Positions 5,401 to 26,254 of a stretch of DNA of 32,664 bases are shown one piece after another. The translations under genes and the position numbers were made by a program. A model generated the notes under the pieces. It saw only the letters and a program-made list of their open reading frames with translations. It was not told the origin of the DNA and ran no database searches. The stretch is from a virus, in IMG/VR virus record IMGVR_UViG_3300034073_002168, positions 1 to 32,664 of that record, one strand, 5' to 3'. Within the stretch, counting starts at the first letter, position 1. Every line of letters begins with the position of its first letter.

Positions 5401-7688
5401 TTTGCAATATAATCGAGATTGATGCGAACCATTCTTGCCCCATCAAAAAATCTATCAGTCGATACTCCTAATAGTGGTTGTAGTGCAACAATTGCTGCAC
5501 CGTTAGTCATATTAGGACCAATAAAACTCATATCAGTAATATGACATCCATTATTAACATGGAATAAGTCACGGTCTAAGAATTTTGGAGTTACGACACA
5601 GTTACGAAGTTCTGTTCCCTCAACAGATACTGTCTTTGCCAAAACAATCGGGTTCTCTTCAACATAAACTCCTGGAAATACTTTGATGGTGTCACCAAAG
5701 ACTGCAACAGTAGATGCAGATTTAATCGTTCTCTTTGGATAATTTTCTGCTAGTCCAGTATTATTATCATCTCCAGTTTGTGAAACGTAGATTGTTTTTC
5801 CTACTGGTCGGTATGAAGTAATTTCAACAATTCCCTTACCATCAGGTTGTGTTGATTCAATATCAATTCCAATACCTGCAGTAATTTGAGTAACAATTCC
5901 AGTTAAATTTACACCATTTCCTAAGAAAGTATCTGCAAGTAGATTGCCAGAAACTTGTAATCTTTCTGTTGGATTTGTTGTTCCAATACCAACAAACTCT
6001 GTTTCGGGAATATAAACAAAATTAGTAGCACCAGCAGCAACATTTTCATTATTGAAGATGACTTGCGTATCTTCACCAGCTACTGGTCCCTCTGTACCTT
6101 GAAGACCCTGCAGACCTTGATTTCCCTGAAGACCTTGAAGACCCTGCAGACCTTGATTTCCCTGAAGACCTTGAGTTCCCTGGTCCCCCTGTAAGCCCTG
6201 TAAACCCTGTGAACCTTGTGCTCCCTGAACACCTTGTTCACCTTGGAGACCTTGAGTACCTTGTAATCCTTGAAGACCTTGTGCTCCCTGAACGCCCTGG
6301 TCTCCCTGAATACCCTGTAGACCTTGAGTACCTTGGTCTCCTTGTAGACCTTGTAGACCTTGTGCTCCCTGAACACCTTGCTCACCTTGGAGACCTTGAG
6401 TACCTTGGTCTCCTTGCAGACCCTGTAAACCTTGTGCTCCCTGAACACCTTGCTCACCTTGAAGACCTTGATTGCCCTGAACTCCCTGATTACTTAAACC
6501 TTGAAGACCCTGAAGACCTTGAACACCTTGGTCTCCCTGAAGACCTTGCAATCCCTGAAGACCCTGAAGACCTTGTAATCCCTGAAGACCCTGAAGACCC
6601 TGAGTTCCTTGAAAATCACTTAAAGGTCCTTGAGCACCTTGAAGACCCTGAAGACCTTGCAATCCTTGAAGACCCTGAAGACCCTGAGTTCCTTGAAAGT
6701 CACTTAACGGTCCTTGAGCACCTTGAAGACCTTGATTGCCTTGAGTTCCTTGAAGACCCTGAAGACCTTGAACACCTTGGTCTCCCTGAAGACCCTGAAG
6801 ACCCTGTAAACCTTGAGTGCCTTGGTCTCCCTGAAGACCTTGCAATCCTTGAAGACCCTGAATACCTTGTCTTCCCTGATTTCCTTGTAGACCTTGTAGA
6901 CCTTGAAGACCCTGAGAACCCTGAGAACCTTGAAGTCCTTGATTACCTTGAAGTCCTTGATTGCCTTGAGTTCCCTGAAGACCTTGAGAACCCCTAGACG
7001 ATGCTTGGCATATTGTAAATTCACATTCACCAACTACGGTATTAACTGCATCTGATTGGTCTGCTTGGTCCATCCAAGCATATATTTCAAGATAGTCGCC
7101 TTGATTTAATTTTATTTGTGTGGTTACTTTTATATTTTTATTGTCGCCTAATGCAGCACCTTCACTATAAGAGGTTGACCTAGTTTCTGTAACCTCATTA
7201 CCATTAACAAATATAGAAGCTATTGGAGAGATTCTCCCAGTTCCGGTATTTATAATTCCTATATTTGCATCTATTAAGTAAATACCCTCTATTACTACTT
7301 GAACTCTTTGAGGATTTACTGTATTTGAATGAACGTATGATTCTAGTTGAGTATAAACAGTATTATCAAAACGAATAGGAACTCTATTCGCATAAGTTAC
7401 ATTAATATTTTCTGTTAACGTAACCTTGTTAAAATTGCAAGCATTAACATCTTTGTTTAAACCAATATTAAACCAAGTCCATCCACCTTGACCATCAGAT
7501 GTAAGAACATCAAATATATTTCCAGAGCTATTATCTTTGTCGTAAATTCCACCTGATACTTGAATATCATTAAAAGTGGATTTTTCTGAAGATGTTACAT
7601 TACCTACTAAGTCACCTTCTGCAGTATCAAATAATCTTACCTTTTTATAAAACCAAGCCTCTTGACCTACAATAAACTTATCTGACAT
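2412..7688 (-). CDS. Giant modular virion protein with collagen-like and beta-helix domains
   Basis: The product has 1758 residues, in visible blocks. Residues 1-232 are a beta-rich head. About 233-535 is a Gly-X-Gln collagen-like rod with interruptions PLSDF (twice) and LSNQ. Next comes VGIGTTNPTERLQVSG, a linker seen in many phage fibre proteins. A segment starting KTIYVSQTGDDNNTG resembles DUF1565/pectin-lyase beta-helices. Duplicated helical modules follow (CEDDIKDILRSISYDL and CADDVKDIWRAICFDM). Then come three repeats of about 90 residues, each ending near STIPHTYVSGG. A C-terminal GSGYTTPP-type beta module is shared with the gp5-like protein. This build fits a cyanophage tail fibre or other host-contact structure. 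Its start follows a GAGG-rich stretch and lies 12 bases from the needle gene's stop. The domain assignments are by eye. Confidence 0.85.
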   Translation of the reverse strand: MSDKFIVGQEAWFYKKVRLFDTAEGDLVGNVTSSEKSTFNDIQVSGGIYDKDNSSGNIFDVLTSDGQGGWTWFNIGLNKDVNACNFNKVTLTENINVTYANRVPIRFDNTVYTQLESYVHSNTVNPQRVQVVIEGIYLIDANIGIINTGTGRISPIASIFVNGNEVTETRSTSYSEGAALGDNKNIKVTTQIKLNQGDYLEIYAWMDQADQSDAVNTVVGECEFTICQASSRGSQGLQGTQGNQGLQGNQGLQGSQGSQGLQGLQGLQGNQGRQGIQGLQGLQGLQGDQGTQGLQGLQGLQGDQGVQGLQGLQGTQGNQGLQGAQGPLSDFQGTQGLQGLQGLQGLQGLQGAQGPLSDFQGTQGLQGLQGLQGLQGLQGLQGLQGDQGVQGLQGLQGLSNQGVQGNQGLQGEQGVQGAQGLQGLQGDQGTQGLQGEQGVQGAQGLQGLQGDQGTQGLQGIQGDQGVQGAQGLQGLQGTQGLQGEQGVQGAQGSQGLQGLQGDQGTQGLQGNQGLQGLQGLQGNQGLQGLQGTEGPVAGEDTQVIFNNENVAAGATNFVYIPETEFVGIGTTNPTERLQVSGNLLADTFLGNGVNLTGIVTQITAGIGIDIESTQPDGKGIVEITSYRPVGKTIYVSQTGDDNNTGLAENYPKRTIKSASTVAVFGDTIKVFPGVYVEENPIVLAKTVSVEGTELRNCVVTPKFLDRDLFHVNNGCHITDMSFIGPNMTNGAAIVALQPLLGVSTDRFFDGARMVRINLDYIAKEAVGFLTSGFSGFAGSHREQDAARLIDLNIDYIASETIGFLTSTDYKSPPFVVPTVPGDCEDDIKDILRSISYDLKAGSNKKSIGAGLTYYDSNGGLLHITGTDINGYSIRDATVDAINHAVGIVTFVINNESYPTQYTNLSQDTSSYSPILVSGGCGDTIIRIESLAEIITDIIGIGTEQAPPIEFGVTLESNDCADDVKDIWRAICFDMTRGGNSKSVRAAKFYFDDDWNLIPQILKNPGEVEQTIATLDYSFNIARAVVNNCTWGGYPAGPVINVSGATYDNLTGITTVTASNHGLLLDDPVKIQGLQFSCPSGPTILTYPTGSLGYVFPVKRVVNSNTFEVVVGQSTLPHTYVSGGTIQKYQNFQNEFLQVKDLSMQVDYETGFNNSLNSCTDVVSAMRSSVGVVTTIVGLGSTAGITTTYPGNSGIGFTTIVNVQSATYENETGKTILSAPGLSVKPGDLIELYDLVFECSSGLTTSTQKFPSGRYGYEFFVDKVFENGAFEINTGISTIPHTYVGGGFIVDRSINVTDATYDNVTGITTIVAPGAYVKLGQNVGLRDLEFSCTSGAGTTTIYPTGKSGGFKFRVLDVPSFGNTFVVNTGVSTIPHTYVSGGKVIPPYSKGVGPITQGPYIRNCTNFVPDSIGMKVDGFDAEPGDQVDIGVTGTMSVDSYTQYNQGGIGVSITNGAYSQLVSIFTICDDIAIFTGSGGQCDITNSNSSFGRLGLVSDGVGDQTTKSIYHYTGKAHQIAELEQDVIVVSGIGSYRPYDGQALYFGDLYYFVQSIEVTDGGSGYTTPPDVTLSDPEGPNGIRAEASANIEGGRVVSVDIISTGTQYKTNPTITFSGGGGGVGAAATTTLYPIYYSVQSATLPSAGISTITLLSNLNNTVSVGTTVYFTRVSLQITSSHSFEWVGSGNNINSAKPALGGVVIQENEVVQRNGGIIVYTSTDQGGNFKIGDDVTINQVTGTITGRAFSQSLLNTVTPLIIALSR
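3553..4578 (-). repeat. Three diverged ~90-residue protein repeats ending in HTYVSGG
   Basis: Within the 1758-residue protein three copies begin INVSGATYDN, VNVQSATYEN and INVTDATYDN, and each ends close to STIPHTYVSGG or STLPHTYVSGG. Each contains an F(S/E)CxSG core and a later YPTG or FPSG turn. In DNA they lie at roughly 4325-4578, 3835-4100 and 3553-3815. The second and third are nearly adjacent, whereas a helical insert separates the first from the second. Confidence 0.8.
6084..6992 (-). repeat. Collagen-like Gly-X-Gln segment inside the 1758-residue protein
   Basis: About 303 codons of Gly-X-Gln triplets use the same few codons as the gene at 1-2058, so the two genes share a repeat family and could recombine. 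Two interruptions encode PLSDF (tcact cores at 6616 and 6700, 84 bases apart) and one encodes LSNQ (core at 6490). Confidence 0.85.
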
Positions 7689-22644: not shown

Positions 22645-23314
22645 AGAGTTCCAGTTTATCTCTAACAAACTTTCTAATATATTCGGTGAGTAGTTTGATG
22701 TACTTTGATTTGTTGTATTCTTCATAGACGACGCATTCTCCATTTTCACAAGCCATTAAAATTACAAGTTTTTTTACAGGAATACCAGTAAGTTCATAAA
22801 ACATACAGGCATAGGCAGCACACTGAACAAAATAGTGTTCAATCCATTCTCTAGGTTTTGCTTTTTTTGAAGTCTTAAAGTCAATTATAGCAAGCTCTCC
22901 GTTGTATTCTGCAATACAATCTACAGTCCCTGCAATCCCTAATTGCCTACTATATAGGGAACCTTCAAGAGCGTAAATATTATTTATCTTATTCAGTTCT
23001 GTTTTTAAAATCTTAAACAGAAATTCTGAAATCGGAAGAATATCGGATTCACAATTAGAGTTTTTTAAATACATCTCTACAAGAGTGTGCATATCCGTGC
23101 CACGACTAGTTGCCTGTTTCGTAACACGGTTTGCTTCCTCTTCTCCTACCTTCTTTCTCCAACCCTCAAAAATGTGTTTGTTAAAGTGACTGGTGACTGA
23201 AGTAATAGAGACCAACTTTAGCAGTTGGTCTTCATCTGAAACTTTATAATAACGCACACCATCTATAGTTTCCCTATCGAGTTGGGGAAGTTCAATATCA
23301 ATATGTTTAAACAT
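22628..23314 (-). CDS. PD-(D/E)XK exonuclease (RecB/Cas4/MGME1-like)
   Basis: The product has 228 residues. The core residues can be read off: H76 in SRGTDMHTLVE, D132 in GIAGTVDCIAE, D145 and K147 in LAIIDFKTSKK, and Q164 to Y168 in FVQCAAYA. This is the order H, D, D-x-K, Q-xxx-Y of RecB-family nucleases. Phages of this group often carry a copy annotated as MGME1-like. No four-cysteine iron-sulfur cluster is present, unlike Cas4. The likely role is end resection in recombination or host DNA breakdown. The start overlaps the phoH stop (TAATG). Confidence 0.85.
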   Translation of the reverse strand: MFKHIDIELPQLDRETIDGVRYYKVSDEDQLLKLVSITSVTSHFNKHIFEGWRKKVGEEEANRVTKQATSRGTDMHTLVEMYLKNSNCESDILPISEFLFKILKTELNKINNIYALEGSLYSRQLGIAGTVDCIAEYNGELAIIDFKTSKKAKPREWIEHYFVQCAAYACMFYELTGIPVKKLVILMACENGECVVYEEYNKSKYIKLLTEYIRKFVRDKLELYGTKN

Positions 23315-24066
23315 TAAAAACCAGCTTCCATTTTTGCTACAATATACTCTTTAACAAGACCTGAACGAACAATATCATCAACGCCAAACTCAATTACATC
23401 AAAAGAAGGCATCGCTCTAATAATTTTCATAAAATCAACAATACCATTACGGTCATTAGTCTTGATTAAGTCTGTTTGAGTTGCGTCTCCACAAAACATA
23501 ATTTTTGAATTTTCCCCAACTCTTGTAATAATACTATCAAGTTCGTGAAAAGTCAAATTCTGGAACTCATCTACGATAATGATAGCATTATCAAGAGTGG
23601 TTCCACGAAGAAAAGAAGTGCTCCAGAACTTTATCGTTTCTTGTGCCTTAAGACCACCATAAAGCATTTCAAAATCAGCATCAGAAGGCATTTGGAACAT
23701 ATACTTTACCATATTCTTATATGGAATTTGATAAAGTGAAGATTTGTCCTCATGGTCTCCAGGAAGAAAACCAATCTCTCTTGTAGCAACTAAAGAACGG
23801 ACAAGATATACTCTTTCGTAAGGTGTTCTTTCGTTTAAGACTTCTCTAAGAGCATTATAGAGTGTGATGAATGTTTTACCAGTTCCAGCACATCCATAAG
23901 CTACAATATGTTTTCCTTCATCATATGAATCAAAAAGTCTTTTTTGATTTTCTGTGAGAGGGTCAATATTGATTAGTAGTTCACTATTTAATGGTTTCCT
24001 TCTCTTCATTTGTTTTGTAGTAAGACCAACACCGATTGGTTGTTCTGTTCTTCTTTTTCTTGCCAT
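23314..24066 (-). CDS. phoH: PhoH-like P-loop ATPase
   Basis: The product has 250 residues. Walker A is GCAGTGKT (58-65). A Walker B-like strand follows at about 157-163 (AIIIVDEFQN) with the PhoH-typical EFQN, then KIMFCGDATQTDL as the sensor region. PhoH-like genes are very common in marine phages. The family is an ATPase and some members act as RNA helicases or in RNA decay, but the phage role is unsettled. There is no C-terminal KH or PIN domain. No Pho box was seen before the gene, which is read through from thyX. Confidence 0.93.
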   Translation of the reverse strand: MARKRRTEQPIGVGLTTKQMKRRKPLNSELLINIDPLTENQKRLFDSYDEGKHIVAYGCAGTGKTFITLYNALREVLNERTPYERVYLVRSLVATREIGFLPGDHEDKSSLYQIPYKNMVKYMFQMPSDADFEMLYGGLKAQETIKFWSTSFLRGTTLDNAIIIVDEFQNLTFHELDSIITRVGENSKIMFCGDATQTDLIKTNDRNGIVDFMKIIRAMPSFDVIEFGVDDIVRSGLVKEYIVAKMEAGF

Positions 24067-24067
24067 A

Positions 24068-24310
24068 CTAGATTTTCTTTACGGTTGAACCAGGCATTTT
24101 TGAGGCACGTCCTAAGACATCATTCCAAGATGGGTGTTTTGACGCAAGTTTATTACGCCAATCACCCACTTCACCTGGAGTGGCACATCCCTCAGACCAA
24201 TCCCTTTTCCATTCAGGATTGTCTTTATACCATTGTTGAATGTCGTGAACACTCATTTCAACAACACGTTTTTCGCCAGTTTCAACATGAATAATAGGAT
24301 AAATTGCCAT
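24068..24310 (-). CDS. Small conserved phage protein, possible degenerate FmdB-like
   Basis: The product has 80 residues and starts MAIYPIIHVETGEKRVVEMS, then HDIQQWYKDNPEWKRDWSEG. The N-terminal layout (short beta ribbon, then a helix ending in DNPEW) recalls FmdB-type zinc-ribbon proteins of cyanophages, but the zinc cysteines are missing. The C-terminal half (WNDVLGRASKMPGSTVKKI) resembles the tail of those proteins. The function is unknown. It sits between thyX and phoH with a candidate late promoter just upstream. Confidence 0.65.
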   Translation of the reverse strand: MAIYPIIHVETGEKRVVEMSVHDIQQWYKDNPEWKRDWSEGCATPGEVGDWRNKLASKHPSWNDVLGRASKMPGSTVKKI

Positions 24311-24332: not shown

Positions 24333-24342
24333 TTATTTATCA
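24333..24342 (-). promoter_or_regulatory. Candidate T4-type late promoter upstream of the 80-residue gene and phoH
   Basis: Minus-strand GATAAATA (24335-24342) overlaps the thyX stop and ends 24 bases before the ATG at 24310, the same geometry as the element before gp26. It is part of a larger palindrome, GATAAAT-TT-ATTTATC, on the plus strand at about 24327-24342. Confidence 0.45.
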
Positions 24343-25092
24343 GGGACTTAGACGTGCTTTATGAAGCCTCTTCTCCTCATAATACTTCCAAATATGAGGT
24401 GCCCACTTTTCAAGATGAGGAACAAGTTGTTCGCAAAGTGCTTGAATTTCTAATTGGGCATCCATCTTTGCTCGCAAATCCATAATATGGAGGACAGAAC
24501 GCAGATTAAAAGAAACCACAAAGTTCTGACGAATTGCTTGTGCAAGATAATCCCTAATGTGTTCTTCACACATTCCTCTTTCGTATTTTGAGGCATAACG
24601 CTTACAACCTTCGTAAATGAAATCTAGTTCATCCTGATAGTCGCCAAGTGTCCATTCATACTTCTTACCATAACGATTGGTATAGAAACCAGGAGGACGA
24701 ACATAGAATACATCCTCAGGATTAAGTTCTCCACTCGCAACCTTTACGACACGCTTACCAGTATAACGCTGGGACTGAACATCAAAGGTTACTCCAACAC
24801 GATGAGTTCGTGCCTGCATCGCTACGTTATGGACATACCCTGAAACAGAGAATGTGATACCAGGATGCTCTAGTGGTCCCCAATGCCCCTTCTCGTTGCT
24901 CAGGAGACGTTCTACGACCCACTCACCACACTTAGCAGGGTTTGGGATTTCCTGTTCGTGAATAGGGGTTTCTGAGTAGTCACACTTTGCTGCCTGATAG
25001 ATGACTTGCTCAGGGATAGCATAGCACTGCAGAACTTGAACCTGCAGGTTTTTATCAAATTCTAGAAGGTCTTTTGCTTTAATAGGTTTCAT
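24340..25092 (-). CDS. thyX: Flavin-dependent thymidylate synthase ThyX
   Basis: The product has 250 residues. It makes dTMP from dUMP using methylene-tetrahydrofolate, NADPH and FAD. The signature region is QARTHRVGVTFDVQSQRYTG (93-112). The C-terminal VVSFNLRSVLHIMDLR, then AQLEIQALCEQL, supplies the usual nucleotide-contact Arg residues and the AQxEI helix. The signature has an extra residue: R98 to S107 leaves eight residues, against seven in the canonical RHRx7S, and the first Arg is followed by Thr. The gene starts in an ATGA overlap with a 55-codon ORF. It supports dTMP supply for AT-rich phage DNA. Confidence 0.93.
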   Translation of the reverse strand: MKPIKAKDLLEFDKNLQVQVLQCYAIPEQVIYQAAKCDYSETPIHEQEIPNPAKCGEWVVERLLSNEKGHWGPLEHPGITFSVSGYVHNVAMQARTHRVGVTFDVQSQRYTGKRVVKVASGELNPEDVFYVRPPGFYTNRYGKKYEWTLGDYQDELDFIYEGCKRYASKYERGMCEEHIRDYLAQAIRQNFVVSFNLRSVLHIMDLRAKMDAQLEIQALCEQLVPHLEKWAPHIWKYYEEKRLHKARLSP

Positions 25093-25421: not shown

Positions 25422-25450
25422 ATTCTACACAAAAAAAGAGGGAGTGTCAA
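25422..25450 (-). promoter_or_regulatory. Sigma70-type promoter embedded in a terminator, driving the thyX-phoH-gp33-gp59 group
   Basis: On the minus strand, TTGACA (25445-25450) and TAGAAT (25422-25427) are 17 bases apart, identical hexamers and spacing to the gp32 promoter. The -35 occupies most of the loop of the adjacent terminator, and the spacer consists of its right arm and T tract. Confidence 0.85.
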
Positions 25451-25460: not shown

Positions 25461-25599
25461 CAACTTTAAACATTTTTTCAAACCACTCCGTCAAGTGTAT
25501 TCCATAACAGTGCCAATACTTATGACCACGATAGGTTAAAAGATAACAGGCAGGTTTTCTGTCGTCTGGGTCTTTTTCGTGGTAGTAGTCTTCAATCAT
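25447..25599 (-). CDS. 50-residue micro-protein, unknown
   Basis: The product reads MIEDYYHEKDPDDRKPACYL, then LTYRGHKYWHCYGIHLTEWF, ending in EKMFKVERED. It is rich in Tyr, His and Trp with two Cys, which could bind a metal or form a small beta hairpin. The start is coupled to the upstream 33-codon ORF by a TGA/ATG overlap, and its stop lies in a terminator loop. No family was recognised. Confidence 0.6.
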   Translation of the reverse strand: MIEDYYHEKDPDDRKPACYLLTYRGHKYWHCYGIHLTEWFEKMFKVERED

Positions 25600-25697
25600 G
25601 CTACTTGTGGCTTTTTAGCCATATTAAGTTCGGCATTATGAAGTTTAACTTGTTTTTTATTTTTAGTTTTTAGGTATTGAACGAAAGCGATTTTCAT
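25596..25697 (-). CDS. 33-residue basic micro-protein, first gene of the palindrome-controlled transcript
   Basis: The product reads MKIAFVQYLKTKNKKQVKLH followed by NAELNMAKKPQVA. It is strongly basic. A very good ribosome site (AAAGGAG, 7 to 8 bases before the ATG) supports real translation despite the length. It follows a leader of about 90 bases and is coupled to the next ORF. The function is unknown. It could be a leader peptide or a small host-takeover peptide. Confidence 0.6.
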   Translation of the reverse strand: MKIAFVQYLKTKNKKQVKLHNAELNMAKKPQVA

Positions 25698-25756
25698 AGG
25701 TCTGCTCCTTTACTAATGAGTAAATTTGCGTTCCTTCGGTTTCCCTACTTCCGTCT

Positions 25757-25778
25757 CTATTTGCTATTCGCAAATAGC
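25757..25778 (-). promoter_or_regulatory. Leader hairpins with alternative pairing
   Basis: In the leader of the 33-codon ORF, CTATTTGC pairs with GCAAATAG (8 bp, loop GAATA; 25757-25777). An overlapping alternative pairs GCTATT with AATAGC around TGCG. Only one can form at a time. There is no T tract, so it is not an obvious terminator. It could stabilise the message or gate translation. Confidence 0.5.
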
Positions 25779-25790
25779 AGATGAACGATA

Positions 25791-25824
25791 AGGGGATTAT
25801 ACCCCTGATATCGTATATAGTCAA
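25791..25824 (-). promoter_or_regulatory. Sigma70-type promoter with -10 inside an inverted repeat
   Basis: On the minus strand, TTGACT (25819-25824) and TATAAT (25796-25801) are 17 bases apart. The -10 is framed by AGGGG and CCCCT arms (25791-25806), so a symmetric protein could cover it. The start would be near 25789, about 92 bases before the 33-codon ORF. Confidence 0.85.
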
Positions 25825-25830
25825 GTATTT

Positions 25831-25848
25831 CTGTAACATTTGTTACAG
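25831..25848. promoter_or_regulatory. 18-bp palindrome matching the NtcA box (GTA-N8-TAC)
   Basis: CTGTAACATTTGTTACAG is a perfect inverted repeat (8-bp arms, TT centre). It contains GTA (25833-25835), eight bases, then TAC (25844-25846), the consensus of the cyanobacterial nitrogen regulator NtcA. Its centre lies about 50 bases before the inferred start. That is one helical turn further than the usual NtcA position near -41.5, so it is on the same DNA face. The rest of 25849-25927 holds only AT-rich sequence with weak symmetric pairings after the speD stop. Confidence 0.6.
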
Positions 25849-25927
25849 TTTTATAAAATCTTAAGGAACTAAAAAATTCTGGGGAAATTTTTTGCTCGTT
25901 CTAGGAAATCAAAGGTCAATTTTGATT

Positions 25928-26254
25928 TTACCTTTCAATATAACTCAGGGTATGGTTCTGAGCATAGAGTTGTTCGATGATAATGTCACACCCAATCTTG
26001 GGGTTACAATCACCACACGTATAAACATCACATGCAGCCTTACCTTCTTCTGGCCAAGTATGAATACTAATATGACTTTCTGAGAGTAAGCACAATACCG
26101 TAACTCCTTGCGGATCAAACTTCTTGTAGATTGTTTGACATACTGTTGCCCCACTAGCAGACGCAGCGTTTTCTAGTAGGTCAATAAGAAAATGCTCATC
26201 GTTCAGAAGAACGAATGAGCATCCGTACAAGTTAAGTAAGTAGTGCTTTCCCAT
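25928..26254 (-). CDS. speD: S-adenosylmethionine decarboxylase proenzyme SpeD
   Basis: The product has 108 residues, short like bacterial class 1B enzymes. It makes decarboxylated SAM for spermidine synthesis. The self-cleavage site is SESHISIHTWPE: Ser60 would become the pyruvoyl group, with His65 and Cys80 (YTCGDC) at the spacing seen in the Thermotoga enzyme (S63, H68, C83). All key residues are present, so it should be active. It begins one base before the preceding stop region (TAAATG). The gene is a known cyanophage accessory gene, and polyamines may aid DNA packaging or host metabolism. Confidence 0.93.
   Translation of the reverse strand: MGKHYLLNLYGCSFVLLNDEHFLIDLLENAASASGATVCQTIYKKFDPQGVTVLCLLSESHISIHTWPEEGKAACDVYTCGDCNPKIGCDIIIEQLYAQNHTLSYIER

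Follow-up and report, generated by a model that had tools for sequence, protein, structure and literature searches.

The glutamine riboswitch family has been described previously (PMC2864571). In cyanobacteria, both NtcA and a glutamine riboswitch act on gifB and PMM1846, and these riboswitches activate expression on glutamine (PMC6316151). The NtcA boxes of Synechocystis gifA and gifB have been reported at -30.5 and -7.5, positions at which NtcA represses (PMC6316151). Glutamine riboswitches are also already known in cyanophages (PMC9964418, PMC9602691). Furthermore, the sequence GTA-N8-TAC occurs in intergenic regions of T4-like cyanophage genomes, at 1-16 copies per genome, and use of host NtcA by these phages has been proposed (PMC3037559). 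Sensing of host nitrogen by marine and freshwater cyanophages is a long-standing proposal, which has until now rested on scattered NtcA motifs.

The stretch of viral DNA analysed here, hereafter the window, comprises 32,664 nucleotides (IMG/VR record IMGVR_UViG_3300034073_002168, positions 1 to 32,664). On its minus strand, an NtcA-type box, a promoter and a glutamine aptamer follow one another in a layout that, by sequence comparison, is kept by hundreds of related viruses. This arrangement is probably a control region with two nitrogen inputs, driving an early operon transcribed by host RNA polymerase in a T4-like cyanophage (Kyanoviridae), with a hairpin at the -10 as a separate element. 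The host of the window is presumed from its relatives alone. The features are as follows, all on the minus strand:

25855-25930: conserved A/T-rich hairpin, a terminator-like 3'-end element, after the upstream gene speD
25848-25831: inverted repeat CTGTAACA-AA-TGTTACAG, containing an exact GTA-N8-TAC
25833-25846: NtcA-type box GTAACAAATGTTAC, lying within the repeat just named (18 nt, 25831-25848); its centre falls at -50.5 relative to the predicted start
25824-25819: -35 hexamer TTGACT, within the conserved extension TTGACTATATA, 8 nt after the box
25801-25796: -10 hexamer TATAAT, 17 nt from the -35
25791-25806: inverted repeat AGGGG-TATAAT-CCCCT around the -10 (AGGGG 25806-25802, CCCCT 25795-25791)
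25789: predicted transcription start, the first aptamer base, placed from promoter geometry and the Rfam aptamer match
25725-25789: aptamer of the glutamine riboswitch family (RF01739 in Rfam), scoring 51.1 bits (E 1.4e-08) where the gathering score is 35
25705-25711: Shine-Dalgarno-like AAAGGAG of the first micro-ORF
25596-25697: 33-aa micro-ORF MKIAFVQYLKTKNKKQVKLHNAELNMAKKPQVA, with start and first codons conserved in relatives
24340-25092: thyX, flavin-dependent thymidylate synthase (PF02511)
24068-24310: 80-aa protein, phrog_385, labelled 'transcriptional regulator'
23314-24066: phoH-like ATPase (PF02562)

An initial annotation had delimited a control region at 25757-25848. The features that it named are present there, but the aptamer runs on below that lower boundary. 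Its TTGACT-17-TATAAT promoter and the AGGGG/CCCCT arms framing the -10 were both found again, and the gene order that it gave, micro-ORFs followed by thyX and phoH, was confirmed with the addition of the 80-aa protein between thyX and phoH. Further small ORFs lie between the 33-aa ORF and thyX. In cyanophages, the phrog_385 protein between thyX and phoH is highly conserved, but no Pfam family matches it; its label comes from annotation only.

Several other elements were observed in and around the operon. speD ends at 25928, upstream of the control region, and the hairpin that follows it belongs to a type with a AAAAAATTT core and a T-run, found 3' of genes or a tRNA in several cyanophages (window 25855-25930; loci L006, L007, L009 and L010). 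Hairpins with this core also adjoin convergent genes, and a similar element stands after a tRNA or beside ssb in S-MS29, P-TIM68 and WH25-B. These hairpins probably represent one terminator common to the phages, of which the window has a weak copy. At window positions 25422-25450 (minus strand), 3' of the first micro-ORF, there is a second promoter, TTGACACTCCCTCTTTTTTTGTGTAGAAT. Relatives L048, L064, L066, L067 and L077 carry TTGACTCCCTCTCTTTTTTTATGTATAATTACCTTTG repeatedly, a promoter with a terminator-like T-run in its spacer. Elsewhere in the window, the G+C content rises to 0.487 at positions 6001-7000, within a 1758-aa ORF, from about 0.35 in the surroundings; the opposite strand of this patch holds an open frame of 262 aa.

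Conservation and position of the NtcA-type box

The initial annotation described a perfect 18-bp palindrome of the form GTA-N8-TAC. The GTA-N8-TAC is exact, but the repeat has 8-bp arms around a 2-nt centre and is symmetric at 16 of 18 positions. Shuffles that keep dinucleotide frequencies yield 2.8 palindromes of such quality per window, and a claim of significance within the window was therefore rejected. The window has 13 copies of GTA-N8-TAC itself, where such shuffles predict 6.3 +/- 2.5, about a twofold excess, and by their coordinates most of these copies fall in listed reading frames. As the window alone does not exceed chance, significance could come only from comparison with relatives.

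A 300-bp query found this layout again in other phages, among them S-PM2, Bellamy, S-SCSM1 and DSL-LC03. Modules were then selected from viral contigs by a pattern consisting only of TTGACTATAT and CGTTCAT, which is blind to both the box and the -10 and returned at least 120 stretches. All loci gathered at that stage, with a downstream aptamer core required, gave 136 distinct modules. Exactly 8 nt before TTGACT, 117 of these 136 listed modules carry an exact GTA-N8-TAC, and no other gap has more than three. In a set enlarged to 279 modules by two further scans, the box stands at the 8-nt gap in 197 of those listed and at any other gap in five or fewer. In the reverse direction, the box geometry stands before TTGACTATA at 232 distinct sites, drawn mostly from the earlier scans, and 218 of these run into CGTTCA. 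Among the 32 sites contributed by the box-anchored scan only, 18 lead to CGTTCA and three to a CGTTCG variant; the other 11 look like chance matches. Close relatives with a thyX 97-98% identical and the same gene order keep the box, so that the absence from relatives that would have spoken against the palindrome was not seen.

The box might nevertheless be a chance or decaying match without any role for NtcA, the riboswitch alone being of importance. GTA-N8-TAC is frequent, with 13 copies in the window, its position is non-standard for NtcA, and in approximately 30% of modules no exact box is present, mostly with the -10 hairpin retained. The box is thus not obligatory. Against this reading, an exact box occurs at one gap in 70-86% of listed modules and at almost no other gap, which makes a chance match improbable. 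Binding of NtcA to the box is accordingly predicted as likely from its conservation. The tie to host nitrogen suggested at first is also supported at the sequence level, with the box fixed in most relatives and a leader that matches the glutamine riboswitch.

The promoter is of the sigma-70 type, with TTGACT and TATAAT showing a single mismatch at a spacing of 17 nt. Among the 136 listed modules, this spacing is 17 nt in 104 and 18 nt in 32. The predicted start was placed 7 nt past the end of the -10, with 6 nt between.

At class II promoters activated by NtcA, the box lies near -41.5, approximately 22 nt before the -10, and there is no -35 hexamer. The phage promoter resembles this class in having GTA-N8-TAC upstream of a sigma-70 -10. 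It differs in that its box is centred at -50.5, 31 nt from the -10 and thus about one helical turn further upstream, and in its full -35 hexamer TTGACT. A class II assignment was ruled out on this spacing, and no TAN3T at the class II distance was seen by eye in the aligned modules. The box also does not overlie the core promoter at -30.5 or -7.5, as in gif-type repressed promoters. Activation by NtcA in the usual manner is unsupported, given the box at -50.5 and the full -35. Because the box lies at -50.5 rather than -41.5, the sign of the NtcA effect may go either way: activation from the same helical face and mild repression are both possible.

The inverted repeat around the -10 hexamer

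A stem of at least 5 bp encloses the -10 in 78% of modules. On the same contigs, such a stem occurs in 3 of 79 (3.8%) other TTGAC[AT]-17-TATAAT promoters and, among 612 sites that resemble promoters more loosely, in 10.6%. The arms themselves vary between modules. GGTCTA/TAGACC, TGTGTTA/TAACACA, GGTATG/CATACC, TAGGGG/CCCCTA and AGCAC/GTGCT are among their types, with 95 different 5' arms in all and loops of 3-9 nt. The two arms change together: when right arms are permuted among modules, the mean stem falls from 5.71 to 3.88 (z 25), and among 83 cluster representatives at 75% identity it falls from 5.29 to 3.43 (z 13.7). Near-identical promoters can differ by a compensatory change at a single pair (GC in L014 to AT in L016), and one lineage contains AGGGG/CCCCT, AGAGG/CCTCT and AGGAG/CTCCT. 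Double changes between close pairs kept pairing 293 times and broke it 51 times, although these counts are not independent.

These stems were searched module by module, a procedure preferred because stem registers differ between modules. When a fixed single-register structure was imposed on a 53-module alignment, 72.8% of cells were paired and covariation was 0.241 against 0.151 in shuffles, with none of 500 shuffles reaching the observed value. Sliding the columns by +1 scored higher, as a consequence of the differing registers, and the fixed-structure covariation was therefore set aside as main evidence. Taken together, these sequence comparisons indicate that the -10 repeat is a module-specific, covarying and separately selected element.

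Template-switch repair can perfect inverted repeats without selection, and the covarying arms could in principle be a functionless product of such neutral repair of quasi-palindromes. The frequency of stems, 78% in modules but 3.8% at the remaining near-consensus promoters of the same contigs, together with the recurrence of unrelated arms at the same place, makes this explanation highly improbable.

Among the imperfect stem positions of distinct modules, 18 are G.T and 4 are A.C (p 0.004), an excess seen in either orientation; in a redundancy-reduced set the counts are 7 and 2, and the difference is not significant (p 0.18). A double-stranded site with two-fold symmetry should show no strand preference, so that an excess of G.T favours a hairpin in the sense strand. 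In the window, the AGGGG/CCCCT hairpin of the sense strand has a predicted RNA fold of -8.3 kcal/mol. A sense-strand hairpin is thus favoured over a two-fold protein operator, subject to redundancy among the modules and a possible mutational bias.

The initial annotation had proposed a second regulator at the -10. The arms on which this rested are real, module-specific and covarying, but their variable sequences and spacings and the sense-strand wobbles favour a hairpin over an operator for one protein. The related proposal, in which a dimeric repressor encoded by the phage uses the repeat as its operator and changes specificity fast between phages, appears unlikely. It draws on the two-fold symmetry near the -10, the classical place of an operator, and on the recurrence of a few arm types (GGTCTA, TGTGTTA, GGTATG). 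A host palindrome in a similar place also speaks for it: in cyanobacterial genomes that have this aptamer, an NtcA-type box, typically GTAACAATAGATACAG, starts approximately 23-35 nt before CGTTCATC, just ahead of the aptamer start and, assuming the position of the host -10, about where that hexamer is expected. The number of half-sites, the loops of 3-9 nt, the single-pair compensatory changes in close relatives such as L014 and L016, and the G.T excess are unexpected for a dimeric operator on double-stranded DNA. Binding by phrog_385, the only annotated regulator nearby, was rejected: the arms differ between phages, whereas the sequence of this protein is highly conserved among them. No phage record searched contained more than one module, which precluded a comparison of modules within one genome as a means of distinguishing operator from hairpin.

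Two further roles were considered and dropped. A terminator was rejected as there is no T-run, and a second promoter, reading the palindromic -10 from the opposite strand, was rejected as no -35 was seen by eye at the right distance.

The left arm lies approximately 5 nt upstream of the -10 across modules, and the right arm ends approximately 2 nt before the aptamer regardless of discriminator length. The sense-strand hairpin would, as a best guess, act in read-through RNA from upstream genes. With its stem directly ahead of P1, as in a computed fold of the two regions joined, it might insulate the aptamer or mark its 5' end. In the window, a terminator-like element upstream would limit read-through, which weakens a role in RNA and makes a DNA-level role at promoter opening a serious rival. 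A hairpin in the melted or supercoiled non-template strand could tune promoter opening or escape, and this is possible, though less probable than not. The repeat is tied to the promoter, its right arm lies just before +1, and tolerance of G.T in the non-template strand suits single-stranded DNA as well as RNA. For extrusion, on the other hand, stems of 5-8 bp are short, and the usual open bubble does not extend to the left arm.

The glutamine aptamer and the genes nested in it

The leader of the window, AUCGUUCAUC...GACGGAAGUAGGGAAACCGAAGGAACGC from the predicted +1, matches Rfam RF01739 over the full model (1-53) at 51.1 bits against a cut-off of 35, with P1, P2, P3 and the ACGGAAGUA core. 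Close relatives also match above the curated cut-off. Mutually exclusive leader hairpins had been noted at the outset, and overlapping hairpins, TGCTATTTGCGAATAGCA and CTATTTGC..GCAAATAG, are indeed present; they are alternatives within the aptamer P2, the riboswitch itself having been missed. In the window, P2 is of the ordinary short form.

By analogy with the cyanobacterial switches, glutamine is expected to activate this riboswitch. A putative expression platform is seen in six relatives, where the 3' half of the aptamer pairs with the first codons of the micro-ORF in the free leader fold, which is 4-8 kcal/mol more stable than the fold with the aptamer forced. Forcing the aptamer in the window changed Shine-Dalgarno accessibility from 0.44 to 0.40, with no rise.

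In 75 of 286 distinct modules, approximately a quarter, the 5' half (CGTTCATCC) and the 3' half (GGACGCAAGTAAG) of the aptamer stand approximately 200-230 nt apart. The insert between them carries one ORF, mostly of 59-72 aa. A frame of more than 50 aa is found in 74 of the 75, one of which passes the aptamer and reaches 79 aa; the remaining module has an 18-aa frame only. Differences at codon positions 1, 2 and 3 number 1775, 1199 and 3199, as expected of coding sequence. The proteins match phrog_6471 in two of three groups tested and have a hydrophobic N-terminus and conserved cysteines. Modules of this kind include L009, L031, L065, L105, L172, L175, L184, L199 and L215, and further L219, L223, L234, L256, L275 and L284.

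The nested frames are closely fitted to the aptamer. Their start codon lies 10-13 nt past the first C of CGTTC, and their stop codon ends just ahead of the core in 40 modules, at a distance of 1-2 nt, and lies inside it in 11, where GGA CGC AAG TAA gives proteins ending in GRK. In the MTKAL group, P2 can form between UCCUAU, at the start codon, and AUAGGA, which follows the stop. As both start and stop lie at the P2 stem, a folded aptamer would be expected to preclude translation of the nested gene, and the reverse. It is conceivable, though we would put it at less than even, that the whole constitutes an undescribed promoter-embedded element, in which a covarying sense-strand hairpin around a sigma-70 -10 abuts a glutamine aptamer and is coupled to an NtcA site at a non-classical position, and in which the nested genes would provide two opposite outputs.

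Aptamers of this family were also encountered in other arrangements. Tandem pairs occur in many cyanophage modules (L002, L003, L004, L005, L008), and the second aptamer of a pair can likewise enclose a small ORF, such as MEAFLLTCLQAQ... in DSL-LC03. Contigs with SAR86, gammaproteobacteria, alphaproteobacteria or betaproteobacteria in their titles also gave exact glutamine-aptamer matches, several of them tandem. The loci concerned comprise L306, L310, L311, L313, L315, L318, L320, L330 and L331, as well as other genome loci. One review describes the glutamine riboswitch as restricted to cyanobacteria, with which the matches in contigs of proteobacterial title contrast.

Proposed control and comparison with described systems

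In the proposed scheme, host NtcA, active at high 2-oxoglutarate when nitrogen is scarce, would bind the box at -50.5, whose spacing to a near-consensus sigma-70 promoter is fixed. Transcription would begin at the first base of the glutamine aptamer. When nitrogen is plentiful, glutamine would stabilise the aptamer and free the ribosome-binding site of the first small-peptide gene, as judged from the tested cyanobacterial switches. The output of the operon would be small peptides, followed by thyX, phrog_385 and phoH, and the -10 repeat would fold as a sense-strand hairpin, a distinct element under selection of its own. The scheme is supported by the host switches, in which an NtcA-type box shortly before the aptamer combines the same two sensors. 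The module should respond both to 2-oxoglutarate, through NtcA, and to glutamine. As it is conserved, single-copy and easily cloned, for example from S-PM2 or Bellamy, it makes the nitrogen-sensing proposal directly testable.

In the literature searched, which covers neither most subscription papers nor any preprints, no precedent was found for the fixed architecture of box, promoter and aptamer, for the covarying -10 hairpin or for the nested genes. The -10 hairpin and the nested genes may be new in kind.

The aptamer resembles the cyanobacterial glutamine riboswitch (glnA motif, type 1, as in Synechocystis gifB) in sequence and structure at the curated score. As in gifB and PMM1846, the phage module has an NtcA-type box upstream and a small-protein gene downstream (PMC6316151). 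It departs from the host loci in the position of its box, which stands upstream of the -35 rather than approximately 23-35 nt before the aptamer or over the core promoter, and in the variable repeat, unrelated to the box, that encloses the phage -10. The targets also differ, being peptides upstream of thyX and phoH rather than glutamine synthetase (GS) inactivating factors.

Phage-encoded glutamine aptamers, predicted through Rfam or by similarity, are shared with the glnA RNAs of S-CREM1 (PMC9964418) and the riboswitch of methylophage Melnitz (PMC9004378). In the passages of these accounts that were consulted, the coupling of an NtcA box to the promoter, the -10 hairpin and the ORFs inside the aptamer are not described. 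The NtcA sites of T4-like cyanophages reported by Sullivan et al. (2010, PMC3037559) have the same GTA-N8-TAC form and the same presumed reader, host NtcA. In contrast to those scattered predictions, the present site occurs once per module, at a fixed 8 nt before the -35, and is coupled to a riboswitch.
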